Shown here piece after piece: positions 23,344 to 63,584 of a DNA stretch of 64,000 bases. The notes under the pieces were generated by a model. That model was not told the DNA's origin. It saw nothing but the letters and a program-made list of their open reading frames with translations, and searched no databases. The stretch covers positions 1 through 64,000 of the forward strand of contig NZ_VCCH02000028.1 of NCBI RefSeq assembly GCF_005938675.2. The letters are read 5' to 3'. The number at the start of each line of letters is the position of its first letter. The stretch's first letter is position 1. Origin of the DNA: Mycobacterium sp. KBS0706 (lineage in GTDB: Bacteria > Pseudomonadota > Alphaproteobacteria > DSM-16000 > Inquilinaceae). The translations under genes were made by a program, and so were the position numbers.

Positions 23344-26334
23344 ATGGCCGCTTACGTCGACCGCTACTGCGACCTCGCGGGCATGGAGACCGACAGCGCT
23401 CTTAAGGTTCTCCTCGGCTCGGACGGCTCCTTCTGCACTCTGATCCGCGTTCACGGCGCCGCCACCATCCTGTCGGCCGAGGAATTCGCCGAGGCCATGT
23501 CCCTGCGCCTCGCCGAGCCGCTCGGGGCCCTCATGAAGAAGCCCGGCCATCTCCTCTCGATCAGCTTCGAACGCCACACCAACACCGATGCCTCCGCCGA
23601 TCGGGCCGGTGCCTTCATGCGCGGACGCTCAGACGGCAAGGCGCTCGACGTCGCCGGCCTGATCGCGGAAACCGAGACCATCATCCGCCAGCAGACCGTC
23701 GAGGAAACCATCCTCATCGCCTGCTGGACCTTTCCGGAGGCGGCGGCCGCCTCCGAACGGGCCCGCGATCGTGCCGAGAACGCCCGCCAGGCCGCCGCCG
23801 CTGGTCCGCTCGGCATCGGCCTGGTGCGATCTCTCCGCCTCAAATGCCTCGACGGCCTTCACACCGCCTTCGTCCACCAGATCACCGAGGCCCTCGAGAA
23901 CGCCGGCCTCGCCCTCGAAATCCTCTCCGGCCGTCCCGACGGAACCCGGCCCGATCTCACCGAGATCAGCCGCGCCCTCCTCTTCCATCAGACGCCGTCC
24001 GACTGGCGGCCGCGCGCTGTCAACGAGGCCACCTACTTCCAGCCCCGACCTGTCGGCGCCGAAACAGACCTCTCCGGATTCTTCGCGCCGCCTCTCTCTC
24101 ACCAGCTGATGAACGCGGGCGCGACCGTCTCGGCCGATCACACCGAGATCGCGTTCGGTGGACGCCGCTACTCTCTCGCCGTCGTCACGCTGTTTCCCCG
24201 CTACCTGCCTCCGTTCAACCTCATCCCCCGGGCGCTCGCGCATCTCCGAGTGCCCTTCCGTGTCGCCTTCCATCTCGAAAGCGGACCGGTTGCCGGCGAC
24301 TGGACGATCGTCATGAAGCGACTCCTCGCCGGCGTCATGGCCAAGCTCTCGCCCGCCAATTCCAACTTCTTCCACGCCGTCCGCGCCATCGAGGCCGCGA
24401 CCGGCCAGGACCTCGCGAGCTTCGCGCGCACGCGCATCGTCGCCACCACCTGGATCGAACCGTCGGAACCCGCCGAGCTGCTGCCGCGCCGTCGGGCGCT
24501 CCTCGTCCAGACCCTCATATCCTGGGGCGAAGCCAGCGTCGCCGACATGACGCCTGATCCCTTGCGCACCCTCGTCGAGACCGTGCCGGGCGCCACCATG
24601 AGCGGCGTCGCCGCCCCCGCCGCGATCGTGCCCATCGAGGAGATGGTCCGGGCCCTCCCCCTTCATCGCCCCGCACCGGTCTTCACCCAGGGCGAGACCG
24701 TGTTCCTCGATCCTGTCGGCAAGGTTTCCTATCACCAGGCCCTCAGCCCTTCGCTCGCGCACTGGCTCCTCCTGATCTTCGCCAGTCCGGGCAAGGGCAA
24801 GTCGATGTTGCTGAATCGCCTCAACTTCGATTTCTGCGCATACGGCGCCGGCGGTCGCCTACCGCTTCTCGGCATCATCGACAAAGGCATCTCGTCCTCC
24901 GGCTTGATCCGCACGCTTTCCGAGGCGCTGCCGGTTCACCGCCGGCGTGAGGTCGCCTATGTCCGTCTCCTCAACAATCGCGACCACGCCATCAATCCGT
25001 TCGACCTCGGCCTCGGTCTTCGCTCCCCGCTCGAGCGTGAGCGCATCTTCATCAAGAACTTCCTCAAGATCCTGCTCCGGCTCGACGATGAGGTCGGATC
25101 CGAACTCGTCGACCGCGTCATCACCCGGGCCTATCGCATCAAGAGCGACCTCGGGATGTCCACCTCGCCGAACCGCTGGCAGCGGGGCGACAACCCCGAG
25201 CTGGACGCCTTCTGCGCGCGCGAGGGCATCCCGCTCCACGATCGCACCACCTATTGGCAGATCACCGATGCCCTGATGCTGCGCGGCCATCACGACATGG
25301 CTGCGATCGCCCAGCGCGGCGCCGCTCCCATCCTCGAAGACATCGTGGGGGTCCTGGCGCTGCCCGAGCTCGAAGCCGACTATCCCGATCACTGTCGCCG
25401 GGCGGCGCGCACCGCGGAGGCCGCGGTCGCCGAATTCCCCCTGTTCGCACGGCCGACGGTCCTCGACCTCGGCGATGCGCGCGTTGCGTCGATCGACCTC
25501 AACGACGTTCTGATCAGCGACCCGGCCTCACCGGATGCGAAGCGCCGAAACGCCCTCATGTTCCTGGTCGCGCGTCATCTCTTCCTACGGCGCATCTCCG
25601 GCCGCGACGACGAGATCCCGCACATGGATCTGCCCGCCGCCGATCCCGATGTCCGCGCCGCCTATAACGCCTGGTGGCGGCGCCACTTCGCAATCATGCA
25701 GGAAACCCCCAAGCGCCTCTGCATGGACGAGTACCACGTCACCGGCGGCGGGTCCTCCATCGCGGCCCAGGTCGAGGCCGACACGCGCGAAGGCCGCAAG
25801 TGGGGCCTCGAGATCATGCTCGCCAGCCAGATGCTCAGCGACTTCGGCCTGCTCCGGAATCTCGCCTCCGCCGTGTTCATCCTGAACGCAGAGAACGACG
25901 AGGTCCGCGCCGAGGCGAAGAAGATCTTCGGCTTCTCGTCCGTGGTCCATGACGTGATGCTCCGCGACCTCACCGGACCACGCGAAGGCCGCGGCGCGAA
26001 TTTTCTCGCCCGCTATGCCCTCGACTCCGGCGAGCGCTGGCTGCTCCTCAACAATCGGGTCGGCGCCCGCCTCCTTTGGGCTCTCACCACCAAGCTGGAG
26101 GACCGCCTGCTGCGCGATGAGATGTATCGCAGGCTCTCCACCTCCGAAGCCCTGGCCTTCCTCGCCCGTCGCTTCCCTGACGGCACCGCGCTGTCCTACT
26201 GGCAGCGCCTGGTCGAAGAGATCAGCGACGAACCTGTCGCTGTCCGCGCGGCGAACGCCCTGCTCGCCGGGTACCTCCGCCTAGTCGACGACACGTCGCC
26301 GGCCGGCACCTCCCACCGCAGATCCGTCGCTTGA
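23344..26334 (+). CDS. dotO: DotO/IcmB/TraU conjugation ATPase (VirB4-class)
   Basis: A 996-residue cytoplasmic ATPase that powers the type IVB channel. The N-terminal domain (to about residue 440) is family-specific. The P-loop reads ASPGKGKSML near residue 483. A Walker B-like CMDEYHV lies near residue 795 and a downstream GLEIMLASQMLSDFG resembles the QxxxD/sensor motif of VirB4. Legionella DotO is of similar length. It starts three bases after the IcmD-like gene; the next gene begins 12 bases after its stop with its own Shine-Dalgarno. Confidence 0.92.
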   Translation: MAAYVDRYCDLAGMETDSALKVLLGSDGSFCTLIRVHGAATILSAEEFAEAMSLRLAEPLGALMKKPGHLLSISFERHTNTDASADRAGAFMRGRSDGKALDVAGLIAETETIIRQQTVEETILIACWTFPEAAAASERARDRAENARQAAAAGPLGIGLVRSLRLKCLDGLHTAFVHQITEALENAGLALEILSGRPDGTRPDLTEISRALLFHQTPSDWRPRAVNEATYFQPRPVGAETDLSGFFAPPLSHQLMNAGATVSADHTEIAFGGRRYSLAVVTLFPRYLPPFNLIPRALAHLRVPFRVAFHLESGPVAGDWTIVMKRLLAGVMAKLSPANSNFFHAVRAIEAATGQDLASFARTRIVATTWIEPSEPAELLPRRRALLVQTLISWGEASVADMTPDPLRTLVETVPGATMSGVAAPAAIVPIEEMVRALPLHRPAPVFTQGETVFLDPVGKVSYHQALSPSLAHWLLLIFASPGKGKSMLLNRLNFDFCAYGAGGRLPLLGIIDKGISSSGLIRTLSEALPVHRRREVAYVRLLNNRDHAINPFDLGLGLRSPLERERIFIKNFLKILLRLDDEVGSELVDRVITRAYRIKSDLGMSTSPNRWQRGDNPELDAFCAREGIPLHDRTTYWQITDALMLRGHHDMAAIAQRGAAPILEDIVGVLALPELEADYPDHCRRAARTAEAAVAEFPLFARPTVLDLGDARVASIDLNDVLISDPASPDAKRRNALMFLVARHLFLRRISGRDDEIPHMDLPAADPDVRAAYNAWWRRHFAIMQETPKRLCMDEYHVTGGGSSIAAQVEADTREGRKWGLEIMLASQMLSDFGLLRNLASAVFILNAENDEVRAEAKKIFGFSSVVHDVMLRDLTGPREGRGANFLARYALDSGERWLLLNNRVGARLLWALTTKLEDRLLRDEMYRRLSTSEALAFLARRFPDGTALSYWQRLVEEISDEPVAVRAANALLAGYLRLVDDTSPAGTSHRRSVA

Positions 26335-26842: not shown

Positions 26843-27220
26843 TCAGCCCGCGTCCGGCGGTGTCTCGCGCGCACCCTCGCTCGGAACCCCCGGCAGCTCG
26901 GCCGGTTCCGCTGCCGCCTGCTTCTTTTCCGCCGGCGCTGCCTTGCGCACAATGCTGCGCAGGTAGCCCGGCGTCACCTTCACCCCCGCCTGGTGGAGGT
27001 GCTCGGCGATCGCCGTCAGCGGGATTTTCTTCTCTATCCCCTCTCGGATCACCGGCATCAGCTTCTCCACCATGGCCCGCGTGCCGAGCGGCTTGTCCGC
27101 CGGCGCCGGCCTGCTGGTGGCCCGGTACAGCTGCCGAAGCTTCGATGCCGCTTCCTTGCTCACGCGATCGAAGCTGGCGCGGTCCCACTGCTGCGCTTTC
27201 TGTGTCGCGGCGCTCGTCAT
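26843..27220 (-). CDS. Small helix-turn-helix protein beside oriT region
   Basis: A 125-residue basic protein. The middle carries IPLTAIAEHLHQAG followed by VTPGYLRSIVRK, a likely helix-turn-helix; the N-terminal half is helical (DRASFDRVSKEAASKLRQLY) and the tail is Ala/Pro-rich and acidic. Its ATG at 27220 borders the proposed oriT, so it could bind that DNA as a relaxosome accessory factor or a local regulator. That is inference from position and motif; no named family was recognised. Confidence 0.65.
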   Translation of the reverse strand: MTSAATQKAQQWDRASFDRVSKEAASKLRQLYRATSRPAPADKPLGTRAMVEKLMPVIREGIEKKIPLTAIAEHLHQAGVKVTPGYLRSIVRKAAPAEKKQAAAEPAELPGVPSEGARETPPDAG

Positions 27221-27525
27221 CTCAATGCTCCTGTTGTGACGCGTCGAGTGCCGCGAAGATACGAAGAGAGTGGCGCGCTTGTCGATACTGGAAAGATGTC
27301 GATCTGTTCTCAGATTGTAGCGCCCTTCGCGATGGTAGAAGGGCGTTTCAGTGTTGCACTACAAGTAACAAGGGAGAGACAGGATAGGGGATGTCCGTAC
27401 ATGAAACGCAAGCGTTCATGTTCCGGCATCCCATCCTGTGCGGCCGGTCTCGGCGCTGCGCTTCTCAATCCGGCCGATCAACGTCACTCGGCATCCATCG
27501 CTGTCACCAACAAGGACACCACGGA
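27221..27525. other. Candidate oriT region
   Basis: A 305-base gap between the helix-turn-helix gene and the relaxosome genes. It holds a hairpin CGCCCTTC/GAAGGGCG (27321-27328, 27338-27345, 9-base loop) and a 61-base imperfect palindrome (27379-27439) centred on CATGAA...TTCATG (27400-27420). Each arm of the palindrome contains the YATCCTGY nic consensus of MOBP/IncP-type origins: TATCCTGT on the minus strand (27386-27379) and CATCCTGT on the plus strand (27432-27439). The downstream relaxase is of the MOBP type, which cuts such sites. Which strand is nicked cannot be decided here. Confidence 0.6.
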
Positions 27526-27723
27526 ATGACACCTCTTCCGCCTCGCGGCACGACACTCCTGGCGCCCTCCGACGAGGGCTTCGTCCAGCACGAAGACGGC
27601 ACCTTCGCCGCGTGGTCGGAGGCGTTCGAGCACATCGATCAGGCGACGCTCGACGCGCTCGATCGTGAGCGCGATCGCGTTACGCGCGGTGATGCCGCCC
27701 GTCGCGCCGGCGACGCCTCCTAA
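27526..27723 (+). CDS. Small acidic protein upstream of relaxosome genes
   Basis: A 65-residue protein from ATG 27526: a short N-terminal stretch, then EGFVQHEDGTFAAWSEAFEHIDQATLDALDRERDRV and a basic end. The frame is open upstream to 27391 but that part crosses the oriT-like palindrome and looks non-coding. It is 12 bases before the next gene, so probably in the same transcript as the relaxase. No family recognised. Confidence 0.5.
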   Translation: MTPLPPRGTTLLAPSDEGFVQHEDGTFAAWSEAFEHIDQATLDALDRERDRVTRGDAARRAGDAS

Positions 27724-27735
27724 CCACACGCCGCG

Positions 27736-27951
27736 ATGCGCCAGATGACCAAATCCGAAAGACCCCGCGGCGGCCTTCGCAGCGACCGGCGCCATTGGAA
27801 GAGCTTCCGCGTGTCCGATGTCGAGCTTCTCGAGCTGGAGGCGAAGGCCCGGGCTGCCGGCGTCACCGTTTCGGACCTCATCCGTGACGAGCTGCTCACT
27901 GGCGAACCCGACCCGACACCACGCGATGGAGGCACAGGGCATGACCGCTGA
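27736..27951 (+). CDS. Ribbon-helix-helix relaxosome accessory protein (MobC/NikA-like)
   Basis: A 71-residue basic protein with the ribbon-helix-helix pattern: a beta strand (KSFRVSDVE), helix 1 (LLELEAKARAAG) and helix 2 after VTVSDLIRDEL. NikA/MobC proteins bind oriT repeats and recruit the relaxase. It overlaps the next gene, another protein of the same type, by 11 bases. The start could also be the ATG three codons later. Two tandem RHH proteins before a relaxase suggest a mixed dimer or two binding sites. Confidence 0.7.
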   Translation: MRQMTKSERPRGGLRSDRRHWKSFRVSDVELLELEAKARAAGVTVSDLIRDELLTGEPDPTPRDGGTGHDR

Positions 27952-28279
27952 GGGGAGCTCCGCTGCCAGCAAGACCCGGCGCTTCGAACTGCGCCTCAGC
28001 GACGACGACCGCGAGCGGTTCCAAGCGATGGCCGACAATGCCGGCATCACTCTGTCGGAGTTGATCCGGCGGCGCCTTCATGGGGCGAAGGTCGTTTCGC
28101 GTCGCGATACGACCAGGCTGTTGAACGAGATCCGGCGGCAGGGCGGGCTGCTCAAATACCTCCACATGCGTGGTGAACCGGTTCTCGATACGGCACAACA
28201 GGTCGCCAGCACCGCGGATCGCATCGAGGCCTTCATCGTCGCGCTCGACGATCCGGCCAGCAGGGGCACGGAACCGTGA
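27941..28279 (+). CDS. NikA/MobC-like relaxosome protein
   Basis: A 112-residue protein. The N-terminal third is a ribbon-helix-helix (RRFELRLSDDDRERFQAMAD, then GITLSELIRRRL); the rest is helical (TTRLLNEIRRQGGLLKYL, VASTADRIEAFIVALDD), matching the MobC/NikA plan in which the second half holds the relaxase-contact region. It ends in a GTGA overlap with the relaxase gene, the classic nikA-nikB/mobC-mobA arrangement. Confidence 0.8.
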   Translation: MTAEGSSAASKTRRFELRLSDDDRERFQAMADNAGITLSELIRRRLHGAKVVSRRDTTRLLNEIRRQGGLLKYLHMRGEPVLDTAQQVASTADRIEAFIVALDDPASRGTEP

Positions 28280-29871
28280 GCTCCTCGGTCGTCGCGAAGA
28301 AGGTCCCTGCCGGCACCCTCGCCAATGATGGCAAGGCTGGGCGGATCCGTCGCCTGGTCGAGTACATCCTGGCGCCGGAGACCGACAACGCGGCGGAGAA
28401 ATGCGTCCATTGGAGCGAGCAGGGATTCGGCTCCAACGATGGGCGCGCGATCAAGCAACAGATGATCCTGTCCGCCGAAGCCGCGACGAGAAGCTCCGAC
28501 ACGGTCGCGCACTACGTCATCTCCTGGCAGGCCGGCCTCGCGCCATCCAACCGACAGATCGACGATGCTGTGAAGGAACTCCTCTCGGCACTCGGCGCGG
28601 CCGAGCACCGCGCGGTCTGGGCGGCACACAGCGACACCGACAACATCCACGTGCATGTCGTCCTGGATCGCGTCCATCCCCTCACGGATCGCGTGCTCGA
28701 CCTGTACCGCGACGTGCCGAAGATCCACCGTGCCGCGAAGACGATCGCACTCGCCCAGGGCTGGGGTCCGGTGATGGACAGCCGCTACACCGTCGACCGT
28801 GCTGCGGCACGCGACCGGGAGCCTGCCCTGTCCCAGAAGGCGATCCTGATGGAGGCGAAGACCGGCACGATCTCGGCGCAGCGCTACGCCCAGACCGTCG
28901 TGCCGGACGCGATCGCCGGCGCCAAGTCATGGGAGGACCTGCACGCCCGCCTGGCGCAGGCGGGGCTCTCCTTTGCGCCCCAGGGCAGCGGCGCCGTCAT
29001 CCGCATCGGCGACACCTGTGTCAAGGCCAGCCGTGTCAGCCGGAGCGGGTCGCTCTCGCGTTTGGAGAAGACGTTCGGCCCCTTCCGTCCCGCCAGCCCG
29101 GCGCCACACTCCACGCCCGAGCGCAAGGCGATTCTCGGCGAATTCCTCATTGCCAGGGATGCACATCGCGCAGCACAGGACGCGGAGCGGAAGCTTCTTG
29201 GCCAGCAGCAGGCTGCGGCTCGCGCTGCCCTGAAGACGGAGTTCGGCGCTCGACACAAGTCCATTGTCGGCGACCGGTCCATACCGTGGAAGAAGCGCGA
29301 CCTGATGCGCCGTGTCCTGGCCGCCCAGCGCGCCAAGGCCATGGCGTCCCTGATCGAAGCACATCGCCTCGAACGCGCCGTTCTCCGGCGCGGCCAGGAG
29401 CGCTTCCCGCGATACCGCGATTGGAAGATCCAGAAGGACGCCGCAGCTGCAGCGCTGGCCAGGCCCACAGCTGTCGGTGTCGGTGCCGGCGGCACCGCCT
29501 CGGGCCGCGGCGTACGACCCGAGGCGATCGACATCCGTGGCTACACCGTCACCATCTCGGGCGACGAGGTGCACTACACCCTCGCCGGCCGCTGGCAACC
29601 CTCGATGATCGATCACGGCCGCTCGATCGCGATCTACGACGCCAACGACGCCGCGATCCGCGCGATGCTCCAGCTCGCCAACACCCGCTGGGGCGGGCTG
29701 ACCCTCAGCCAGGCAGCCCCGGAGCTTCGCGCGCGCTTCGCCGAGATCGCAAAGGCGGACCACTTCGCCCTCTACGACGGCACCGGCGCCGCCCTCTCTC
29801 CTGCTGCGATACGCCACCAGGCGGTCGCCGCCCCGCAACCCACCACGACACGGAGGCCATCGTCCCGATGA
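28276..29871 (+). CDS. MOBP-type relaxase (TraI/NikB/VirD2 family) with LPD7-like tail
   Basis: A 531-residue relaxase that cuts oriT and pilots the transferred strand. The catalytic region has VEYIL near residue 35 (likely active-site Tyr), HYVISWQ, and the metal-binding histidine triad in AAHSDTDNIHVHVVLDRV (HxDxxxxHxH). Residues about 410-515 (RGYTVTISGDEVHYT, IDHGRSIAIYD, AIRAMLQLANTRWGGL) match the LPD7 domain of large mobilisation proteins. The GTG start at 28276 overlaps the upstream stop. The triad and the nic consensus in the adjacent palindrome both indicate MOBP. Confidence 0.92.
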   Translation: MSSSVVAKKVPAGTLANDGKAGRIRRLVEYILAPETDNAAEKCVHWSEQGFGSNDGRAIKQQMILSAEAATRSSDTVAHYVISWQAGLAPSNRQIDDAVKELLSALGAAEHRAVWAAHSDTDNIHVHVVLDRVHPLTDRVLDLYRDVPKIHRAAKTIALAQGWGPVMDSRYTVDRAAARDREPALSQKAILMEAKTGTISAQRYAQTVVPDAIAGAKSWEDLHARLAQAGLSFAPQGSGAVIRIGDTCVKASRVSRSGSLSRLEKTFGPFRPASPAPHSTPERKAILGEFLIARDAHRAAQDAERKLLGQQQAAARAALKTEFGARHKSIVGDRSIPWKKRDLMRRVLAAQRAKAMASLIEAHRLERAVLRRGQERFPRYRDWKIQKDAAAAALARPTAVGVGAGGTASGRGVRPEAIDIRGYTVTISGDEVHYTLAGRWQPSMIDHGRSIAIYDANDAAIRAMLQLANTRWGGLTLSQAAPELRARFAEIAKADHFALYDGTGAALSPAAIRHQAVAAPQPTTTRRPSSR

Positions 29872-34948: not shown

Positions 34949-35956
34949 TCAGGCGGTCTGCTTGGCGCCGGATATGGTACGCGGAGCGTTGCGAGGCTCA
35001 AGATCGACAGGCCTGATCCCGGGGATCTGCCTCAGCTCATCCGCTCCCGCTTCATAGACCGCGACAGAACCTCGGTAGCCGCATTCTCGCGCGAACTGCA
35101 GCAACCGACTGAAGTCTCTATATGTCCGGTCGGAGCCTCGGGTAGTGCGAAGAATCCGGAATTCAGGTCGCCATGAAGTACTGAAATAAGGTGCGTACTC
35201 GCTACCAGCGTCGCCTGAGCGTTCTACAACAATCAGGCGGAGGATTGTTCCGTTATCGCGGATATTATCTTGAATTTCCGACTCTAGGAGGCCGGCATCG
35301 GCGAATCGCCCGTTCTCAATCGGTAGCATCTGGGCGTGAATTGCTGGTGTCTCTGTCTTGATCTTGCGAACGAGCGCATCGAGATAGACTGCTAGCGCGC
35401 TTTCAATAATCTCCCGATCACCATCGTCAAATGGGGGGAAGGTATTAACCTCGTGGCGGTTGCCCACGAGCATTGCACATCCACTTGGCTTGTCGAATGC
35501 CCACATAAGGTATGGCACCCCAATACAAGCTCTCAAGGTGAGAGCGGCTGTTTCGGCTCGATCGGTGGTGCCAGTCGTGTAGTAAAATGCTGGAGGGCGG
35601 GGGAGGTCCAGAGTCTCAGGGGGGCGCGAGCTCGAAAAGCCCGTTGATGCAAGTATCGTGAACGTGCTTGAGCTGGCGTCGGCAACCCGCAGCAGCATCG
35701 CGCGATCAAATAGCGCGTTCTCACAGATTATCGCCAGCGTCTCCGAGTTAAACGAATTGGAGCCCGTGTTCCGGTCCCATAGCCGATAGATCTCGCGCAT
35801 CAGCCGGATTACGGTTCGTCGCCGATGAGATTCCCGGAAAGTTGCAGCCTGCTCTTCGGTCGCGCGCGACAGGCGAGCCCCGAGTTCATTACACTCGCGC
35901 TGGTAGTAAGCCAGCTCCCGCCTGAGACGGTCTAGATCGTCGGCTCCGTCCGTCAC
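34949..35956 (-). CDS. Coiled-coil protein with GAF-like domain, partner of FIST protein
   Basis: A 335-residue cytoplasmic protein. An N-terminal coiled coil (DLDRLRRELAYYQRECNELGARL) is followed by a GAF-like sensory region from about residue 55 to 205 (REIYRLWDRNTGSN, AIICENALFDRAMLLRV, FPPFDDGDREIIESALAVYLDALVR, a helix typical of GAF ends). The C-terminal 120 residues show no kinase, GGDEF or other output domain. GTG 35956 overlaps the FIST stop (GTGA). The codon use is more A/T-rich than the conjugation genes, suggesting separate origin. Function inferred as signalling with the FIST protein. Confidence 0.65.
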   Translation of the reverse strand: MTDGADDLDRLRRELAYYQRECNELGARLSRATEEQAATFRESHRRRTVIRLMREIYRLWDRNTGSNSFNSETLAIICENALFDRAMLLRVADASSSTFTILASTGFSSSRPPETLDLPRPPAFYYTTGTTDRAETAALTLRACIGVPYLMWAFDKPSGCAMLVGNRHEVNTFPPFDDGDREIIESALAVYLDALVRKIKTETPAIHAQMLPIENGRFADAGLLESEIQDNIRDNGTILRLIVVERSGDAGSEYAPYFSTSWRPEFRILRTTRGSDRTYRDFSRLLQFARECGYRGSVAVYEAGADELRQIPGIRPVDLEPRNAPRTISGAKQTA

Positions 35957-37173
35957 GGGTTGTACCGCATCACAGCGAGGAGGCCGGTCCAGTCCAGCGC
36001 GCGAGGCTCACCATCGAATGGCGCAATCTCGACGCCAGAGTATAGCCCGATCAAGGGCGCCGATTGATCGAGGCCGTCGACCACCAAGCTCGCCTCCTCG
36101 CGCGCGGCACCGCTGCGGATGCTCGCCCGGCCTGCACAATCGATGTAGAGCGAGAACAGGGTGTCTCCCTGCCCGATAATTTCGTTTGCCGCCCTTACCC
36201 CACGACGGACCGAGTCCAGCATCAAAGCGTTATCCCTGGCCATGATCTGCACCTTGGCGCCTAACTCGAAATCGGCTTCGAAAAGAGTAACCGATCCCTC
36301 GGCGGGATCACCCGTCAGAATGAGACGGTTCACATAGCTGTGCTCGTCAAAAGGAGCGAATTGGTCACCTTGCTTTTGCCCCAGCGTTGCAAGCAGGGAG
36401 ATCGTGCCTTCAGGCCCCGTTGTCATCGGGCGTCCGAGGCGCTGTTCCAACACACTCAGGGCCGGCTCACCGTCAAGTTCATAGACCACCGCTCCGTCAA
36501 TGCGAGTGATCTCGAGGAATGAAGACGCAGGGACACACCCGTTCATGACAAAAGTGTCCGCTTTAACGCCCGACGGCCAGGCCAGGGCAACCAAGCCGTG
36601 CTTTCGCACGTCTCTGCCGTCGAATATCCAGCCCTCCGACAAATTGAGATCCGTTAAAAGTCCACCGCCTAGGACCGTCGGCCTCTTGTGTCGGCATCCG
36701 TCCATAAGGCCGGCCACGATTCTGGTAGCCATATGCAGCTTCAGCGGAGGATTTGCCGCAACGCTGTCGTAGAATAGCGTTATCGTATCGCCGTAATTGA
36801 TCCTTTCGGAAATCTCGACGCCGAGTCGTCGTGAGACTTCGTATTCGCCATCAGTAAGGTCATCAGCGATTAGTACATGAGGTGTAACGGAATCAGAAAG
36901 TAGAGCTAGAGCCGTAACTTCAAGGCCGCTGTACCCAAACGATTCTCCAGCGATGGCGCCTGCGGCTGCCCCGCCTACAATTGGAATATCTCCGTATTTG
37001 TCCCGAAATTGTGATAAAATTCGGAAGCCGTCGAGCTTCCCACCACAAAATACCAGCAACATTTTGGGACTTACGTTGCCAATCGCTTCAATGCACTTGA
37101 GGGCCGCAAGTTCGGGGCTCGCTGCGCGGCCATATCCCGTGACAACCGGCGATTTTGCTGTTTGCAGCAACAT
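35953..37173 (-). CDS. FIST-domain sensor protein
   Basis: A 406-residue protein made only of FIST_N (MLLVFCGGKLDGFRILSQF, VGGAAAGAIAGESFGYSG, ALALLSDSVTPHVLIADDL) and FIST_C (TFVMNGCVPASSFLEITRID, RPMTTGPEGTISLLATLG, FSLYIDCAGRASI). FIST domains are predicted small-ligand sensors, usually linked to kinases, methyl-accepting domains or GGDEF proteins; some members have roles in nitrogen-oxide or electron-transfer systems. Here the partner is a GAF-like protein. The gene has lower GC than its surroundings. A 15-base palindrome (37204-37218) lies 31 bases before the ATG. Confidence 0.85.
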   Translation of the reverse strand: MLLQTAKSPVVTGYGRAASPELAALKCIEAIGNVSPKMLLVFCGGKLDGFRILSQFRDKYGDIPIVGGAAAGAIAGESFGYSGLEVTALALLSDSVTPHVLIADDLTDGEYEVSRRLGVEISERINYGDTITLFYDSVAANPPLKLHMATRIVAGLMDGCRHKRPTVLGGGLLTDLNLSEGWIFDGRDVRKHGLVALAWPSGVKADTFVMNGCVPASSFLEITRIDGAVVYELDGEPALSVLEQRLGRPMTTGPEGTISLLATLGQKQGDQFAPFDEHSYVNRLILTGDPAEGSVTLFEADFELGAKVQIMARDNALMLDSVRRGVRAANEIIGQGDTLFSLYIDCAGRASIRSGAAREEASLVVDGLDQSAPLIGLYSGVEIAPFDGEPRALDWTGLLAVMRYNP

Positions 37174-45251: not shown

Positions 45252-47345
45252 TCAGCTCCACATTGCTCTCGCCTTGGCGCCAACATCGACGCGCGCCCGA
45301 GCGGCGTTCGGCCCCGCCGCCTGGGCGGCGACGGCGCTGGACCAGGTTGAGACCTCGAACAATCCAAGGATCTGTGATGGGATGAAGCGCGTCCGCGGCG
45401 CGTAGACGTGCCGGTCGCCGCGCTTCACTTGACTGTGAGTGTAGAATCGATGGGGCATGACCAGGTGCAGATCGTCCTTCGCCCGGGTCATGCCGACATG
45501 GAGAAGGCGGCGCTCCTCCTCGATCTCCTCCGTCGACCCGGTGCCGAGATCGGACGGAATGCAGCCATCGACCGCGTGCAGGATATGGACAGACCGGAAT
45601 TCGCGGCCTTTGGCGCTGTGGATGGTGGACAAGATCAGGTAGTCGTCATCGAGCAACGGCGGCCCGGCCTGGTTGCCGGTCGCGTCCGGAGGATCCAGCG
45701 CCAGGTCGGTGAGGAACTCCGACCGCGAGGCGGAGCTGGTGGCGATCTGCGCCAGCTGGACCAGATCGGCCGCACGGATCTCGGCTTCCTCATGGATCCG
45801 TTCCAGGTGCGGCGCGTACCAGTGCTGGATCGCATCAAGCTCTGCTGGCCAGGCCAGGTCGCGATCGCGCAGGACGCGCATCAGGGCGGCCAAATCTGGC
45901 CAGGCTGCAGCCGCGGCTGCAGGTGGCTTTGCCCCGGCGAGCGCTGCAAAAGGCATCAGCGCCGATGCCATCTCGTCCAGCACCCGGCCGGAATGGGCCG
46001 GGCCGACGCCGGGCAGCAGCTGCAGAACCCGGAAGCCCGCCACGCGATCGCGCGGGTTCTCCGCCCAGCGGAGGACGGCCAGCAGGTCTTTGACGTGCGC
46101 GGAGTCGAGGAATTTCAGGCCGCCGAACTTGACGAACGGAATGTTCCTCCGGACCAGCTCGACCTCGAGGGCGCTCGAATGGGTGGCGGTCCGAAACAGC
46201 ACGGCCTGCTGCTTCAGCGGCACTCCGGCCTCGCGGTCTTCGAGCACGCGATCGGCGACATATCGGGCCTGCTCGATCTCGTCCGCGACAGTGACGAGCC
46301 GCGGCCGCTGCTCCGAGAGCCGCTCCGACCACAGCTCCTTCGCATAGCGCTCTGGGGCCAGGTTGATGACCGCGTTCGCCGCCGCCAGGATCGGCTTCGT
46401 CGACCGATAGTTCCGGGCGAGCGTCAGCACCGTCGCTGGCGGCGCGAACAGCCCCGGGAAATCCAGGATGTTGCGGACCGTCGCGGCGCGGAAGCTGTAG
46501 ATGGCCTGTGCATCGTCGCCGACCACCGTCAGGCCGCGGCCATCGGGCTTCAGCCCGGTCAGGATGGAGGCCTGCAGGCGATTGGTGTCCTGGTACTCAT
46601 CGACCAGGACATAGTCGAACCGGCTCTGGATCTCGGCCGCCAGGTCAGGATCCTCCATCGCTTGAGCCCAGTGCAGAAGCAGGTCGTCGTAGTCCAGCAC
46701 CATCTGGGTTTGCTTGGCCTCGACGTAGGCGGCGAACAGCCTGCGGAGCTCGTCGCCCCAGCTGGCGCACCAGGGGAAGGTGCCCTTCAACACCTCGGCC
46801 AGCGGCAGCTGCGCGTTGACCACCCGGGAATAGATCTCGAGGCAGGAGCGATTGGTCGGGAAACGCTCTTTTGTCGCGGATAACCCAAGCTCATGGCGGA
46901 TCACGCCTATCAGGTCGGCCGAGTCTTCGCGGTCGTGAATCGAGAACGAGACGTCCAAGCCCAGCTGGTCGGCATGGTCGCGTAGCAGTCTGGAACCGAT
47001 TCCGTGGAAGGTGCCCGCCCAAGCGAGCGTCGCGGCGGCACCCTCGCCCAGCGCCCGCGCGGCGATCCGCTCCGTCCGGCGTTTCATTTCGTCGGCCGCA
47101 CGGCGAGAGAAGGTCAGCAGCAGGATCCGGAACGGATCGGCGCCAGCCTCGATCAGCCGCACGACCCTGTGTGCCAGGGTGTTCGTCTTGCCGGTGCCCG
47201 CGCCGGCGATGACCAGGAGCGGCCCCGCGGGGTCGTCGCCAATGCCGAACTCGACGGCCGCGCGCTGTTCCGCGTTGAGCGTGTCCAGATAGGTCAGGGG
47301 CTGAGCGGTCGACTCGGCGGCGTTCATCCAACCAGTCAGCATCAT
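45252..47345 (-). CDS. UvrD/PcrA-like superfamily 1 DNA helicase
   Basis: A roughly 697-residue 3'-5' helicase/translocase. All motifs are present: Q motif LNAEQRAAV, Walker A AGAGTGKTNTL, motif II DYVLVDEYQDTN (DExQ), motif III VVGDDAQAIYSFRAA, motif IV YRSTKPIL, motif V-like STIHSAKGREF and motif VI RRLLHVGMTRAKD. It ends short after a basic tail. The start is uncertain: ATG 47345 is given; ATG 47327 and a GTG at 47441 (on the palindrome shared with the toxin-antitoxin pair) are possible. It may aid plasmid replication or repair. Confidence 0.88.
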   Translation of the reverse strand: MMLTGWMNAAESTAQPLTYLDTLNAEQRAAVEFGIGDDPAGPLLVIAGAGTGKTNTLAHRVVRLIEAGADPFRILLLTFSRRAADEMKRRTERIAARALGEGAAATLAWAGTFHGIGSRLLRDHADQLGLDVSFSIHDREDSADLIGVIRHELGLSATKERFPTNRSCLEIYSRVVNAQLPLAEVLKGTFPWCASWGDELRRLFAAYVEAKQTQMVLDYDDLLLHWAQAMEDPDLAAEIQSRFDYVLVDEYQDTNRLQASILTGLKPDGRGLTVVGDDAQAIYSFRAATVRNILDFPGLFAPPATVLTLARNYRSTKPILAAANAVINLAPERYAKELWSERLSEQRPRLVTVADEIEQARYVADRVLEDREAGVPLKQQAVLFRTATHSSALEVELVRRNIPFVKFGGLKFLDSAHVKDLLAVLRWAENPRDRVAGFRVLQLLPGVGPAHSGRVLDEMASALMPFAALAGAKPPAAAAAAWPDLAALMRVLRDRDLAWPAELDAIQHWYAPHLERIHEEAEIRAADLVQLAQIATSSASRSEFLTDLALDPPDATGNQAGPPLLDDDYLILSTIHSAKGREFRSVHILHAVDGCIPSDLGTGSTEEIEEERRLLHVGMTRAKDDLHLVMPHRFYTHSQVKRGDRHVYAPRTRFIPSQILGLFEVSTWSSAVAAQAAGPNAARARVDVGAKARAMWS

Positions 47346-47434
47346 TCGCGGTTTGTTCGCAATGTGCTTGGGGGTCCAGTCGCGCTGCTGGTCTCGCCGT
47401 TTGCCGGTCACAAGCTTGGCTCGACTTGAATTGT

Positions 47435-47470
47435 ACCTCACTTGATGCCATATTCGGCGTCAAGTGAGGT
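47435..47470. promoter_or_regulatory. Palindromic operator between helicase and Xre-RES genes
   Basis: ACCTCACTTGA (47435-47445) and TCAAGTGAGGT (47460-47470) are perfect 11-base inverted arms around a 14-base centre that is partly symmetric itself (GCC...GGC). The right arm holds the GAGGTG ribosome site of the Xre gene. It fits binding of a dimeric Xre-type antitoxin that represses its own operon, and possibly the divergent helicase gene. Confidence 0.7.
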
Positions 47471-53302: not shown

Positions 53303-54733
53303 TCATGCTGCAGATTCCCCGGGGTTGAGTTCGGCAATGGGAAAGGTCAGCGTCATGACGAGACCCTCTCGAGGCCACTGCCTTTCTACAGCACCCTTCA
53401 ACTGCGCCTTTACCGTACCGTCGATGAGCCTGGTGCCGAAGCCGTCTGTACGGGACGACGGCGAGAGCTCCGGCCCGCCGCGCTCGATCCAACTCAAGCG
53501 GACCGTAGATTCGTCCATGTCGAGCGAGATCTCGATCTTTCCATCGCAGGTCGAGAGCGCGCCGTACTTTGCAGCGTTTGTGGCGAGCTCGTGGAAGGTG
53601 AGAGCCAGCGGCGTGATGGCGTTACCAGATACCGGGACCTCTGGACCGATGAGGGAAATACGCGCTCCGGCCGAATCTTCGAAGGGCGAGACAATCGTTT
53701 GAACAAGCGCCTGAACGGTTGTCGGCGTTGGGAGACGGTCCCGCGTGAGGTCGGTAAGAGTCAGCTCGTGAGCGCGAGACAGGGCTCGGAGCCGGCTCTG
53801 GACCGCGGTGATCAGCTCCTGTGCTGAACCGCCCGACCTGCCGCTCAGGGAGACAATGGCGCTCGACAGGGCGAAGAGGTTTTTGACCCTGTGGCTCATC
53901 TCATGAAGGAGAAGTTCCTGTCGTTCCTGCGCTCGCCTCTGCTCGGTGATGTCGCGAATGATCGTTGATGCCCCGATGATCTTGCCACCGGAGTCCTTGA
54001 GGGGTGACACGGACCAGGAGACTTCGACCAAACTACCGTCTTTCCGGCGCCGGAGCGTCTCGAAATGATCAGTCCTCTCGCCAGCGCGGATTCGTGCGAG
54101 GAACCCGATCTCTTCGTCCCTTCGGTCTTTGGGAACCAGGAGAGTCAGTGGCCGGCCGATGACCTCCTCGGCGGAATATCCGAAAAGCCGTTCGGCTGCG
54201 GCGTTCCAGCTCCTGATTATCCCGTCGAGGTCTTTCGACAGGATGGCGTCGTCCGAGGATTCCACGATCGCTGCGAGCCGCATGGCGGCCTGCTCGGATG
54301 CGTGTCTCTCTGTGACGTCGATCATGATGTTCACTGCGCCGCTCAGGGCCCCTGCGGCGTTGAACAGCGGAGTCGGATACGCGATCACATGCACGGTGCT
54401 GCCGTCAGGACGCTCGACAATAATGGCCTCGCCGGCGATAGACCGCCGTTCCCGAAGCGCGCGGGCAGTCGGCGCTTCGTCGTGAGAAATTGGATTGCCG
54501 TCGGGCGAGAGCAGCTTATGCGCCGCATTGAACCGCGCTTCGCCGATCGTGGGCCGGCTGCCCCAGACCGTTATCGCGGCCTCGTTGAAAAAGGTGATCC
54601 ACCCCGCGGCATCGGTCATATAGACCGCAACAGGAAGTGTCCGCAGAAGTTCTTGCCATTGCAGCTCGGTGGCGAGGTTTGTCAACCTCAGCCGCGTACT
54701 TGGCCCGGGCGCCGTTGCCTCTGATCCATTCAT
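53303..54733 (-). CDS. HWE-family PAS histidine kinase
   Basis: A 476-residue soluble sensor kinase. Two PAS domains (VAVYMTDAAGWITFFNEAAI, about 30-140; AILSKDLDGIIRSWNAAAERLFGYSAEEVIG, about 160-280) are followed by the HWE dimerisation/phosphoacceptor region LLLHEMSHRVKNLFALS (His) and an ATPase with LTFHELATNAAKYGALS and VRLSWIERGGP (the His and W-x-E that name the family), FGTRLIDG at the end. The start ATG 54733 drops 22 poorly coding codons. A response regulator gene lies 128 bases upstream on the same strand. Confidence 0.88.
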   Translation of the reverse strand: MNGSEATAPGPSTRLRLTNLATELQWQELLRTLPVAVYMTDAAGWITFFNEAAITVWGSRPTIGEARFNAAHKLLSPDGNPISHDEAPTARALRERRSIAGEAIIVERPDGSTVHVIAYPTPLFNAAGALSGAVNIMIDVTERHASEQAAMRLAAIVESSDDAILSKDLDGIIRSWNAAAERLFGYSAEEVIGRPLTLLVPKDRRDEEIGFLARIRAGERTDHFETLRRRKDGSLVEVSWSVSPLKDSGGKIIGASTIIRDITEQRRAQERQELLLHEMSHRVKNLFALSSAIVSLSGRSGGSAQELITAVQSRLRALSRAHELTLTDLTRDRLPTPTTVQALVQTIVSPFEDSAGARISLIGPEVPVSGNAITPLALTFHELATNAAKYGALSTCDGKIEISLDMDESTVRLSWIERGGPELSPSSRTDGFGTRLIDGTVKAQLKGAVERQWPREGLVMTLTFPIAELNPGESAA

Positions 54734-54861
54734 CGAAGAAGCCTGCGCCTGCGCCGCCCAACGACAGTTGCCGTAACGCCTTGAGACGTACGATACCACG
54801 ATCCTGAATGGTTAAAAGGCCGCACGTTTGGAGTGCCTGCCCCCTAGGGACATGCGCGGCT

Positions 54862-58976: not shown

Positions 58977-60390
58977 GGCGGCGCCGGGGCCGCTGGTGCT
59001 CTATGTCGAGGAGCACCAGGCGCTCCGGGTCCACGCGGTTGACGGCGCCGCGGCCGCCGAAGGCCTCGCCCCAGGCCAGCCGCTGGCCGATGCCCGAGCT
59101 CTTGTCCCGAATCTTCTCGCGGCGCCGGCAGACCTGGCCGGCGACGCCGAGGATCTCGGCCGCCTCGTCGATTGGGCGCGGCGCTATTCGCCGCTCGTCG
59201 CCGGCGACGGCGCCGACGGCATCCTGGTCGACCTGACCGGTGCCGCGCATCTTCAGGGCGGCGAGGAGGCGGTGCTGGGCGACATCGTGCAGCGCCTCGG
59301 CCGAGCTCGGCTCGAGGCGCGGGCTGCGATCGCCGATACCGCGGCACAGGCCTGGGCCTGGGCCTGCTTCGCCGGCGGAGGCGTCGTCGGCGTCGGCGCC
59401 GGCATCGGCACTTTCGCGCCGCTGCCCGTCGCGGCCCTTCGTCTGCCGCCGGCGCTGATCGAAGGCCTGCAGCAGCTGGGGCTTCGCCGGGTCGGGCATG
59501 TCTCCCCCCTGCCCCGCGCCCCGCTAGTCCGGCGGTTCGGCCGCGAGATCGTCGTGGCCCTGGACGCGCTGTCCGGCCGCCAGGCGACGCCGGCGACGTT
59601 CCAGGCCGAGGCGAGAACCTGGCGTGGTCGCGCCTCACTGGTCGAGCCGATCGGCACGGCCGAGGCGATCGAGACCGCGCTGCGCGCGCTCCTCGAATCT
59701 CTCTGCGCCGAGCTCGCCGTCGCGGGCCGCGGCGCGCGCATCCTCGAGCTCACCCTGTTCCGGGTCGACGCGACCAGCCAGCGCGTTGCGATCGGCACCA
59801 GCCGGCCGCTGGCGGACGCCACGGCCGTGTTGCGCCTCATCCGCGACCGGATCGCCGAGATCGACCCCGGATTCGGCATTGAGGCAATGTTGCTGGAGGC
59901 GGCTGAAACCGACCGGATCCTGCCGGCGCAGGCGGACCTCGCCGGCGGCCGCGACACCGGTGCCGATCTGGCCGACCTGATCGACCGGATCGAGATCCGC
60001 AGCGGGCCGGGCAGCGTTCGCCGTGTTCACCCGGCCGATCGCCACTGGCCGGAGGCGGCGGGGGTCGAGGTGCCGGCGTCATTGCCGCCGCCGGCGCCGG
60101 GCAGCTGGTCCCTTCCGGTGCCGCGCCCGGTCGTGCTGTTCGAGCGGCCGGAACCGATCGCGATCGAGACCCGCGGCTCGGCGATCGACGCCTTCAGCTG
60201 GCGAGGCCTCCGTCACCGGCTTCATCGTGTCGTTGGTCCCGAGCGGGTCGAGCCCGAATGGGGCTGGGACACGCCGGAGCGGACCCGCGACTACTACCGG
60301 GTCGAGGACGATGGCGGTCGCCGCTACTGGATCTTCGTCACCGCCGGGGAGAATGCCCCCGCCTGGTTCCTCCACGGCCTGTTCGCATGA
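58909..60390 (+). CDS. imuB: ImuB, inactive Y-family polymerase of the mutasome
   Basis: A 493-residue protein of the ImuB family. It begins MRRWLSVWLPRWPTDRWRR, with GILVDLTGAAHLQGGEEAVL, LPVAALRLPPALIEGLQQLGLRRVGHVSPLPRAPLVRRFG (helix-hairpin-helix) and a C-terminal part GSAIDAFSWRGLRHRLHRVVGPER, YYRVEDDGGRRYWIF. Y-family catalytic acids are missing as known for ImuB, which acts as a beta-clamp-linked adaptor. It overlaps dnaE2 by ATGA. Confidence 0.9.
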   Translation: MRRWLSVWLPRWPTDRWRRQRSEAAPGPLVLYVEEHQALRVHAVDGAAAAEGLAPGQPLADARALVPNLLAAPADLAGDAEDLGRLVDWARRYSPLVAGDGADGILVDLTGAAHLQGGEEAVLGDIVQRLGRARLEARAAIADTAAQAWAWACFAGGGVVGVGAGIGTFAPLPVAALRLPPALIEGLQQLGLRRVGHVSPLPRAPLVRRFGREIVVALDALSGRQATPATFQAEARTWRGRASLVEPIGTAEAIETALRALLESLCAELAVAGRGARILELTLFRVDATSQRVAIGTSRPLADATAVLRLIRDRIAEIDPGFGIEAMLLEAAETDRILPAQADLAGGRDTGADLADLIDRIEIRSGPGSVRRVHPADRHWPEAAGVEVPASLPPPAPGSWSLPVPRPVVLFERPEPIAIETRGSAIDAFSWRGLRHRLHRVVGPERVEPEWGWDTPERTRDYYRVEDDGGRRYWIFVTAGENAPAWFLHGLFA

Positions 60391-63300
60391 CCTATGCCGA
60401 GCTCCAGGTGACGACCAACTTCAGCTTCCTGTGCGGCGCATCGCATGCACACGAGTTGGCGGCCCAGGCGGCCGAGCTCGGCCATCGCGCCATCGCCGTC
60501 ACCGACCGGAATACGCTCGCCGGCGCCGTGCGGCTCCACCAGGGCGCCAAACAGGCCGGGCTGCGGCCCGTCATCGGCGCACGGCTCGACTTCACGGATG
60601 CGCCCAGCGTCCTGGTCTATCCGACCGACCGGGCCGCCTATGGACGCCTGTCCCGGATGCTCACCACGGGCAAACGCCGGACCACCAAGGGGGAATGCTC
60701 CCTGCAGCTGGCCGACCTGGTGGAAAACGCCGAGGGCCTGCTGGCTGTCGCTCTGCAGCCCGATGGTCGACTCACCCGGGCTGCCGGCGAGCAGCAACTG
60801 CAGCACCTCGGTACGCTGCGCGCCACCTTCGGCGATCGTCTCTATCTCGGCGTCCAGAACCTGCTGCGCGGCGACGACGCCCGACGCCTGGCCTGGGCGG
60901 TCGACGCCGGCGCCCGCCTCGACATCCCGTTGGTGGCAACCAACGACGTCCACGCCCACGCGCGAGGCCGCCGCGCGCTGCAGGACGTCATGACCTGCAT
61001 CCGCGAGCGGACCACCCTCCGGGCGGTCGGTCGCCGGCTGCACGCCAATGGAGAGAGATACCTCAAGGACGAGGCGGCGATGCGCGAGCTCTTCGCCGCC
61101 TGCCCGGAGGCGGTCGACCGCACGGCCGAGATCGTCGAGCGCTGCCGCTTCGGCCTCGACTCGCTGCGCTACGAGTATCCGATCGACACCATTCCCGCGG
61201 GCAGGACGGCGCAGCAGCACCTGGTGCAGCTCACCTGGGAGGGGGCCGCCCGGATGTATCCGGACGGCGTGCCGGACAAGGTCCGCGGGATCCTCGAGCA
61301 CGAGCTCGCGCTGGTCGACCAGCTCAGCTACGCCCCCTACTTCCTCACCGTGCACGACATCGTCTCCTACGCCCGCGGCGAAGGGATTCTGTGCCAGGGC
61401 CGCGGCTCTGCCGCGAACTCGGCCGTGTGCTATGTCCTCGGCATCACCGCGGTCGACCCGGCGCGCTCGGACATGCTGTTCGAGCGCTTTATCAGCCCGG
61501 AGAGGAAGGAGCCGCCAGACATCGACGTCGATTTCGAGAACGAGAGGAGGGAGGAGGTCTACCAGTACATCTATCGCCGATACGGCCGCGAGCGGGCCGG
61601 CCTGGCCGCCACGGTTATCACCTACCGCAGCAAGAGCGCCATCCGCGATGTCGGAAAGGCGCTCGGCCTCTCCTCAGACACGATCGACAGGCTCGCCCGG
61701 TCAGCACCGGGTTGGGACCAGGAAATGACCGCCGCGCGGCTGCGCGATGCGGGCATCGATCCGCGGGATCGCACCGCCCGACGTGTCCTGGCGCTGGCCG
61801 GCCAGCTCTATGGCTTCCCGCGCCATCTCAGCCAGCATGTCGGCGGCTTCGTCATCACCAGGGGCCGGCTGGACGAGAGCGTGCCGATCGAGAACGCCGC
61901 GATGGAGGACCGGACCTGCATCGAATGGGACAAGGACGATCTCGATGCCCTCGGGATGCTGAAGATCGACATCCTCGCGCTCGGCATGCTGACCTGCGTC
62001 CGCAAGGCCTTCGAGTTTCTCGAGGCACGAACCGGCCACCCCTTCCGCTGGCACGACGTGCCGCCGGAGGACCCGGCCGTCTACGACATGCTGTGTCTGG
62101 CGGATAGCGTCGGCGTCTTCCAGGTGGAATCTCGGGCGCAGATGTCGATGCTGCCGCGGCTGAAGCCGAGATGCTTCTACGATCTGGTGATCGAGGTCGC
62201 GATCGTCCGGCCGGGGCCGATCCAGGGCGACATGGTTCACCCCTATCTCCGCCGGCGGCAGAACAAGGAGCCCGTGGCATTTCCGAAGGAGGAGCTGCGG
62301 CAGGTGCTGGGCAAGACGCTAGGCGTGCCGCTGTTTCAGGAGCAGGCGATGGCGATTGCGATAACTGCGGCTGGATTTTCGCCGGGCGAGGCCGACCAGC
62401 TGCGCCGGTCAATGTCGGCCTATCGCCGGACCGGTCGGGTCGCTGAGTACCGCGATCGGATGGTCAGCGGCATGGTCGCCCGCGGCTACGACCAAGCCTT
62501 CGCCGAGCATTGTTTCAGCCAGATCGAGGGCTTCGGCGAGTACGGCTTCCCGGAATCGCACGCCGCCTCCTTCGCCTTGATCGTCTACGTCTCCGCATGG
62601 CTCAAGCGGCACCACCCGGCGATCTTCTGCGCCGCGATCCTCAACTCCCAGCCGATGGGCTTCTACGCGCCGGCGCAGCTGGTCCGGGACGCCCGCGAGC
62701 ATGGTGTTGAAGTTCGCCCGGTCGACGTCAACCATAGCGACTGGGATTGCGCGCTCGAAACCGGGCCACGCGGCCTCGCCGTGCGGCTCGGCATGCGCCA
62801 GGTCAAGGGAATGCGTGAGGTGGACGCGGCACGGATCGCGGCCGCCCGCGGCGACGGCTACAACGAGCCGCGCGAGGTCTGGCGCCGAGCCGAGGTCACC
62901 GTGGCCACCCTGGAGCGCCTGGCCGAGGCTGACGCCTGGCGCTCCATGGGTCTCGACCGCCGGAGCGCCCTATGGGCGATCCGCGGGCTCGGCGACGTGC
63001 CCCTGCCCCTCTTCGAGGCAGCTGACCGGAGCCGAAGGCCGGGCGACAACCGGCCGTCGGTCGAGTTTGCCGGCGAGCCGCAGGTCCTGCTGCCGGCGAT
63101 GACGCTCGGCGAGGAGGTGGTGCGTGACTACCAGTCGCTGCGCCTCTCCCTGAAGGCGCATCCGATGTCCCTCCTCCGCCGGCACGTCGCCGGCGACGGT
63201 ATCCTCTCCACGGCCGAGATGCGCGCCGCCAAGGACGGCAGCTGGGTCGCCACCGCCGGCCTGGTGTTGATCCGCCAGCGCCCGGGCACGTCCAGTGGGG

Positions 63301-63584
63301 TGATTTTCGCCACGCTCGAGGACGAGACGGGCATCGCCAACATCATCGTCTGGCCGCAGGTTTACGAGCGGTATCGCCGCGCCGTTGTTGGCGGCCGCCT
63401 CCTCGAGGTGCGCGGCCGCCTGCAGAAGGAGGGGCTGGTCATCCACCTGATTGCCCGGCACGTCATTGACCGGTCGCCGCTGCTGCGCGAGCTGGGGCGG
63501 CTCGATGGACCGGAGGAGGTCGAGCCGCTGCTGACTGAACGCGAGGCGGTCGATGCGATGCCGGGATCGCGGGATTTTCGGTAG
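60387..63584 (+). CDS. dnaE2: DnaE2 error-prone DNA polymerase III alpha
   Basis: A 1065-residue C-family polymerase. The PHP domain is at the start (TNFSFLCGASHAHELAAQAAELGHRAIAVTD). The palm holds GRGSAANSAVCYVLGIT and PPDIDVDFENERREEVYQYI (catalytic Asp residues), QHVGGFVIT and the helix-hairpin-helix region at about 830; an OB fold lies near the C-terminus (GVIFATLEDETGIANIIVWP). With ImuA and ImuB it performs SOS-induced translesion synthesis. Complete gene; overlaps imuB by ATGA. Confidence 0.95.
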   Translation: MTYAELQVTTNFSFLCGASHAHELAAQAAELGHRAIAVTDRNTLAGAVRLHQGAKQAGLRPVIGARLDFTDAPSVLVYPTDRAAYGRLSRMLTTGKRRTTKGECSLQLADLVENAEGLLAVALQPDGRLTRAAGEQQLQHLGTLRATFGDRLYLGVQNLLRGDDARRLAWAVDAGARLDIPLVATNDVHAHARGRRALQDVMTCIRERTTLRAVGRRLHANGERYLKDEAAMRELFAACPEAVDRTAEIVERCRFGLDSLRYEYPIDTIPAGRTAQQHLVQLTWEGAARMYPDGVPDKVRGILEHELALVDQLSYAPYFLTVHDIVSYARGEGILCQGRGSAANSAVCYVLGITAVDPARSDMLFERFISPERKEPPDIDVDFENERREEVYQYIYRRYGRERAGLAATVITYRSKSAIRDVGKALGLSSDTIDRLARSAPGWDQEMTAARLRDAGIDPRDRTARRVLALAGQLYGFPRHLSQHVGGFVITRGRLDESVPIENAAMEDRTCIEWDKDDLDALGMLKIDILALGMLTCVRKAFEFLEARTGHPFRWHDVPPEDPAVYDMLCLADSVGVFQVESRAQMSMLPRLKPRCFYDLVIEVAIVRPGPIQGDMVHPYLRRRQNKEPVAFPKEELRQVLGKTLGVPLFQEQAMAIAITAAGFSPGEADQLRRSMSAYRRTGRVAEYRDRMVSGMVARGYDQAFAEHCFSQIEGFGEYGFPESHAASFALIVYVSAWLKRHHPAIFCAAILNSQPMGFYAPAQLVRDAREHGVEVRPVDVNHSDWDCALETGPRGLAVRLGMRQVKGMREVDAARIAAARGDGYNEPREVWRRAEVTVATLERLAEADAWRSMGLDRRSALWAIRGLGDVPLPLFEAADRSRRPGDNRPSVEFAGEPQVLLPAMTLGEEVVRDYQSLRLSLKAHPMSLLRRHVAGDGILSTAEMRAAKDGSWVATAGLVLIRQRPGTSSGVIFATLEDETGIANIIVWPQVYERYRRAVVGGRLLEVRGRLQKEGLVIHLIARHVIDRSPLLRELGRLDGPEEVEPLLTEREAVDAMPGSRDFR

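Follow-up and report, generated by a model that had tools for sequence, protein, structure and literature searches.

A mirrored nic segment in a MOBP-type origin of transfer is most likely the pairing partner of the true nic in a folded operon leader

Introduction

A palindrome that carries a nick-site (nic) consensus in both of its arms raises the question of whether conjugative transfer could start from it in either direction. The window, as the whole 64-kb stretch of DNA analysed here is called, sits in an 88.9-kb contig of a 9-Mb draft genome and contains such an imperfect palindrome at 27379-27439 (ACAGGATAGGGGATGTCCGTACATGAAACGCAAGCGTTCATGTTCCGGCATCCCATCCTGT). The consensus YATCCTGY occurs once on each strand, at 27379-27386 on the minus strand (TATCCTGT) and at 27432-27439 on the plus strand (CATCCTGT), as a sequence-only reading of this DNA had observed; that reading proposed a symmetric origin of transfer (oriT), or one true site with the other arm serving as a decoy or operator. 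The plus-strand copy, here called the mirror, is most likely not a second transfer start but the pairing partner of the true nic in a folded leader. The whole model, an oriT with a single minus-strand nick that is at the same time a traJ-II-like operon leader, with the mirror forming one strand of a helix (P1), is given a probability of roughly 0.7.

The transfer region

The palindrome is surrounded by an MPF_I module with genes for TrbC-like and DotM-like proteins, a topoisomerase, DotA/TraY, DotI, DotG, a DotO-like ATPase, T4SS_TraI, and DotB. Judged by the DotO-like protein (23344-26334), the closest annotated transfer systems are those of alphaproteobacterial plasmids; its best relatives, at about 45%, come from plasmids of Methylobacterium and Xanthobacter. 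The one examined from Methylobacterium (L002) combines MPF_I with a Ti-type TraA relaxase, so relaxase modules have been swapped between related transfer systems.

A small divergent gene (26843-27220, minus strand) lies in the traK/mobC position; a sequence match to its product was sought and none was found. On the plus strand, a small open reading frame (27526-27723) preceded by AAGGA at 27512-27516 is probably the first gene after the leader. It is followed by genes for a small ribbon-helix-helix (RHH)-like protein (27736-27951) matched weakly by models of RelB antitoxin and MbpA, a NikA/MobB-like RHH accessory protein (27941-28279; PF21983, E 3.7e-15) that is 33-41% identical to the MobB proteins of relatives, and a MOBP relaxase of the TraI/MobA family (28276-29871). 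The relaxase matches NF041893 with 256 bits (cut-off 250) as well as PF03432 and TraI_middle, and it has an N-terminal catalytic-type tyrosine and an HxDxxNxHxH motif, so that the MOBP histidine triad ascribed to it earlier is indeed present. Its nearest relatives are MobA of pRAS3 (IncQ-2) and of similar plasmids, at only about 35% identity. The tandem RHH-type genes (27736-28279) overlap one another upstream of the relaxase gene, and a DNA repeat, D2 (27841-27884 versus 28025-28068, 70%), suggests that a duplication has taken place. Downstream of the transfer region are genes for a FIST-domain sensor (35953-37173) and a PAS/HWE histidine kinase (53303-54799); a UvrD-like helicase (45252-47441) and a DnaE-type polymerase (60258-63584) are also encoded further downstream.

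No near relative was found by DNA match among plasmids, and no relative of the relaxase in 17 genomes of the order (1e-20), or in 385 genomes of the class (1e-40); a single-protein scan of genome contigs came back empty, and viral contigs searched for relatives gave none either. A scan of genome contigs based on a relaxase alignment yielded 33 further loci. A motif scan of the 385 genomes of the class returned the window and five other matches only, which were dismissed as chance, with no nic or inverted repeat nearby.

The palindrome and the origin of transfer

The octamer YATCCTGY is by itself uninformative (10 copies observed in the 64-kb window, 6.6 expected); the palindrome is informative. 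It is the top-scoring gapped palindrome of the whole window, with a score of 18.5 compared with 15.5 for the best dinucleotide shuffle, and none of 300 shuffles of the intergenic region equals it. The arms are made unequal by small indels. The further perfect hairpin described earlier at 27321-27345 is also real: it has 8-bp arms (CGCCCTTC-GCGATGGTA-GAAGGGCG) and lies on the leading side, downstream of nic. That the oriT inverted repeat extends into nic merely by chance is very improbable. The position of the mirror in the window, unseen in the closest relatives, would fit such an accident, but an extension that pairs at seven of seven positions is rare, no shuffle reaches the palindrome's score, and a contiguous mirror is also found in I-complex plasmids.

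The segment 27379-27439 is almost certainly a MOBP-type oriT, lying ahead of the genes for the NikA/MobB-like RHH protein and the TraI/MobA relaxase within the MPF_I module. The IncP/MOBP assignment of the sequence-only reading is supported by these adjacent genes (NF041893 and PF21983 matches), and YATCCTG|Y follows the inverted repeat on its 3' side, on the strand that does not encode the relaxase (minus strand, TATCCTG|T). The premise that known oriTs place one nic beside one inverted repeat is not borne out: in IncP, IncQ-2-like, and I-complex oriTs, too, the strand opposite nic bears a nic-like mirror.

Which strand is cut

The probable true nic is the minus-strand 5'-TATCCTG|T-3' (27379-27386), with the nick predicted between 27380 and 27379. 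Read on the plus strand, its complement ACAGGAT (27379-27385) would form the 5' strand of P1; the left (27388-27409) and right (27412-27432) arms of the oriT inverted repeat form P2, and the mirror ATCCTGT (27433-27439), which pairs with 27379-27385, would form the 3' strand of P1. In the folds P1 is set off from the inverted repeat by a 2-nt AG bulge (27386-27387), present solely on the left, the side of the nic complement.

In its strand relative to the relaxase gene, the RHH gene, and the second hairpin, the minus-strand site matches all 22 aligned MobA-type oriTs as well as those of IncP and I-complex plasmids; in the usual polarity nic lies opposite the relaxase-gene strand and the second hairpin towards the relaxase gene. 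The bulge likewise falls on the nic side only in I-complex oriTs, where it is 1-3 nt long and on the same side as in the window (L016, L017, L047, L094, and L097). Gene order and bulge polarity together thus point to the minus-strand TATCCTG|T as the single nick site, and transfer would be one-directional. In two metagenome-derived loci (L079:750-861 and L081:2968-3079) the whole oriT element is inverted with respect to the MobA-like relaxase gene; the covariance model R1 described below matches them on the minus strand, and a CATCTTG|T-like nic is on the plus strand.

Neither spacing nor arm sequence decides the strand. A dyad-to-nic spacing of 27 nt, in the style of RP4 and R64, first favored the plus strand; this argument was dropped, as the family range of nick-to-loop distances (23-31 nt) covers both the minus-strand (29 nt, counted from the last stem base) and the plus-strand (26 nt) site. 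Scored with a profile of the nic-side arm, the two arms of the window are hardly distinguishable (p 0.05 versus 0.15).

A symmetric oriT, in which both sites are cut and transfer starts either way, would account for these admissible distances and for two sites that both fit YATCCTGY with inverted-repeat arms alongside. It is nevertheless highly unlikely. The bulge and the gene order single out one side, nicks on both strands of the same palindrome would bring the danger of a double-strand break, and the mirrors of MobA-type and IncP oriTs stand away from the inverted repeat. The behavior of the mirror in relatives, considered next, also argues against it.

Covariation of nic and mirror

Pairing was scored in 34 oriTs (22 MobA-type, 8 I-complex, 3 IncP, and the window) by comparing the four bases that precede the nick with the last four of the mirror, which was sought at its expected place, with G-U allowed. 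Nic and mirror pair in 34/34, a count that leaves out L068, L080, and L012 and in which same-lineage sequences are not independent; permuted pairings reach at most 31/34, and none in 10,000 reaches the observed value. Four lineages with changed nics (TCTTG, CCTTG twice, and TCTGG in place of TCCTG) still pair with their mirrors, and mirrors in relatives (TTCTG, ATCTG, ACCTG, CTTG, CTGG) leave the nic consensus with pairing preserved. The mirror is therefore not kept as a nic in relatives but drifts in step with pairing, and transfer in either direction, which the sequence-only reading drew from the mirrored signal, finds no support. The mirror is absent in L068 and L080. Mirrorless L080 carries the second-hairpin (P3) loop most similar to that of the window. 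L012 (2042-2142, a Xanthomonas citri plasmid) is mutated at both sites, with nic changed to CATCATG and the mirror to ATTCTG, and its relaxase frame is unannotated; its oriT module looks to be decaying.

MobA-type leaders and the traJ-II RNA

A precedent for pairing between nic complement and mirror is the traJ-II RNA of IncP plasmids (Rfam RF01760; PMC2864571), in which the nic complement forms a closing helix with a mirrored AUCCUGC located about 85 nt further on; inside this helix lie the inverted repeat of the oriT and a second hairpin. In RP4 the traJ transcript begins 24 nt upstream of the nick (PMC7314908), so the traJ-II leader is transcribed. In IncP oriTs (RP4, L014, L015, and L048), as in the window, a nic-like mirror on the sense strand is the pairing partner of the nic complement, a P1-type helix encloses the oriT inverted repeat, a second hairpin is present, and the whole lies upstream of the RHH-relaxase genes with a small divergent gene on the opposite side.

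MobA-type oriTs (IncQ-2 pRAS3; L045, L013, L006, Acetobacter L074 and L078, and others) belong to the systems with the relaxase and NikA/MobB proteins closest to those of the window, and they share with it a near-identical P3 loop and the same nic strand relative to the operon. In most of the 33 loci the order is CAGGAT (the nic complement), the inverted repeat, a hairpin with the loop TTCGGCGCTTCGCTTCTCA, and ATCCTGC 11-12 nt past the loop. Covariation in 18 MobA-type sequences gives strong support to the resulting three-way junction: 90.7% of cells are paired compared with 75.9% after shuffling, which no shuffle of 500 reaches, covariation is 0.372 compared with 0.118, and P1 is 97.6% paired. 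The traJ-II model gives full-length matches to two MobA-type relatives at 22.2 and 20.7 bits, below the cut-off of 40, so the MobA-type leaders are diverged relations of traJ-II that go unreported by Rfam. Leaders with the three-way junction that go uncalled include L006, L009-L011, L013, L045, and the genome loci L052-L078. In the region of the window traJ-II gave no match up to E 10, and Rfam nothing meaningful.

The second hairpin and the fused topology

The second hairpin of the window, P3 (27441-27476), has perfect, complementary 7-bp arms (CGGCCGG and CCGGCCG) around the loop CTCGGCGCTGCGCTTCTCA, which is identical to the family motif TTCGGCGCTTCGCTTCTCA at 17 of 19 positions and holds the TTCGGCGCTNCGCTTCTCA loop of the R1 family. 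The covariance model R1, built from 18 distinct MobA-type sequences with the window left out, has a single match in the 64-kb window, on the plus strand at 27377-27487 (22.8 bits, E 0.0021), a span taken as the whole traJ-II-like structured leader and oriT core. The score is modest compared with 68-80 bits for held-out intact relatives: the inverted repeat and P3 fit, and the mirror is missing at the position the model expects.

The difference is one of topology. IncP mirrors follow the second hairpin, closing a three-way junction, and MobA-type mirrors lie 11-12 nt past the loop of that hairpin and are followed by C in nearly all cases. The mirror of the window, unlike those of all MobA-type relatives examined, adjoins the inverted repeat, precedes P3, and is followed by T, with CAACGTCAC standing after P3 instead; P1 is present but encloses the first hairpin only. 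Most MobA-type plasmids are typed mobilisable, whereas the window oriT lies in an MPF_I conjugation module.

A contiguous nic-repeat-mirror stem is shared with I-complex plasmids (IncI1 NikAB and IncL/M; L016, L017, L046, L047, and L093-L097), which also have a second hairpin outside the stem, a bulge on the nic side, and an MPF_I system. Their relaxase is only about 30% identical to that of the window, their second hairpin differs (GTC-AGGGC..GCCCC-GAC), and their mirror is usually imperfect (ATCTGG, ACCTGG), while ATCCTGT in the window pairs perfectly in P1. With a MobA-type P3 and an I-complex-type fused stem, the window combines the two arrangements. Its mirror appears to be homologous to MobA-type mirrors, although an independent origin is possible.

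RNA leader, single-stranded DNA, or operator

The RNA of the window region folds at -50.4 kcal/mol (z -4.8). As single-stranded DNA, both strands of the palindrome region also fold through nic far more stably than shuffles (z -4.7 and -4.4), and covariation alone does not separate RNA from DNA. The main rival explanation accordingly has the pairing act in single-stranded DNA or an extruded cruciform, where a nic held in a stem, with the CCTG-OH 3' end of the cut strand base-paired, could time relaxase cuts at initiation or termination or shield the 3' end of the transferred strand. This is an unlikely account. When the sense strand is read, all wobbles in P1 are G-U, as in sense RNA, with no A-C among the seven helix pairs, the cases being few; in a comparison of G-U with A-C mismatches P1 leans towards RNA, and P3 shows A-C cells only, apparently owing to a register correlation. 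The few wobbles could reflect mutation bias. The location of traJ-II in a transcribed leader and the conservation of the extra hairpin P3 on the relaxase-operon side also favor RNA.

An operator is less probable still. An RHH protein bound to both arms, with the mirrored nic as part of its binding site, could repress the operon; in RP4 the oriT inverted repeat is bound by TraJ, which represses its own synthesis (PMC7314908), and two RHH-type genes come next in the window. Such a dimeric operator would account for the arms but not for a mirrored nic heptamer that covaries across families, nor for the conserved P3. The suggestion that one arm is a decoy or operator comes closer than two-way transfer, yet a second strand of a traJ-II-like leader helix fits best.

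In the preferred reading, the relaxase would nick a single strand, the minus strand, with the cut at TATCCTG|T (27380|27379) and the relaxase operon transferred last. The plus-strand transcript, which presumably runs through the palindrome, would be the leader of the RHH-relaxase operon. In this RNA ACAGGAU (the nic complement) would pair with AUCCUGU (the mirror) as P1, which would prolong P2 into one long stem, followed by P3 with its conserved loop; the mirror would resemble nic because it must pair with it. A traJ-II-like cis-regulatory leader would in this way be superimposed on the oriT. Because the RHH protein and the relaxase should bind the DNA that encodes the leader, it is plausible that the state of the relaxosome is coupled to the synthesis of its proteins, linking relaxosome-gene expression to relaxosome assembly.

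Conclusions

The oriT class and traJ-II are already known, and the nic-mirror rule is partly known from IncP plasmids. In the literature searched, which lies mostly apart from the older R64 and RP4 papers, no description was found of the fused arrangement with a MobA-type relaxase or of nic-mirror covariation across families; the newness of the general rule is uncertain. The tempting idea of a two-directional oriT is removed as probably wrong.

In its place stands a testable rule, that the nic of this large class of relaxases has a partner with which it pairs and covaries, and this rule helps to pick the true nic strand in uncharacterised plasmids. The traJ-II RNA is extended beyond IncP, to MobA-type leaders that the Rfam threshold misses. 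We suggest, tentatively and at somewhat less than even odds, that a covarying mirror always holds nic in MOBP operons (IncP, IncQ-2-like, I-complex, IncL/M, and this plasmid). The DNA target of the relaxase would then double, in the leader RNA, as one of the two strands of a regulatory helix. Such an arrangement, with its two interchangeable topologies, may be a general switch by which nicking, or occupancy of the relaxosome, is coupled to expression of the relaxase. The question thereby raised is how a plasmid ties nicking to relaxase synthesis.
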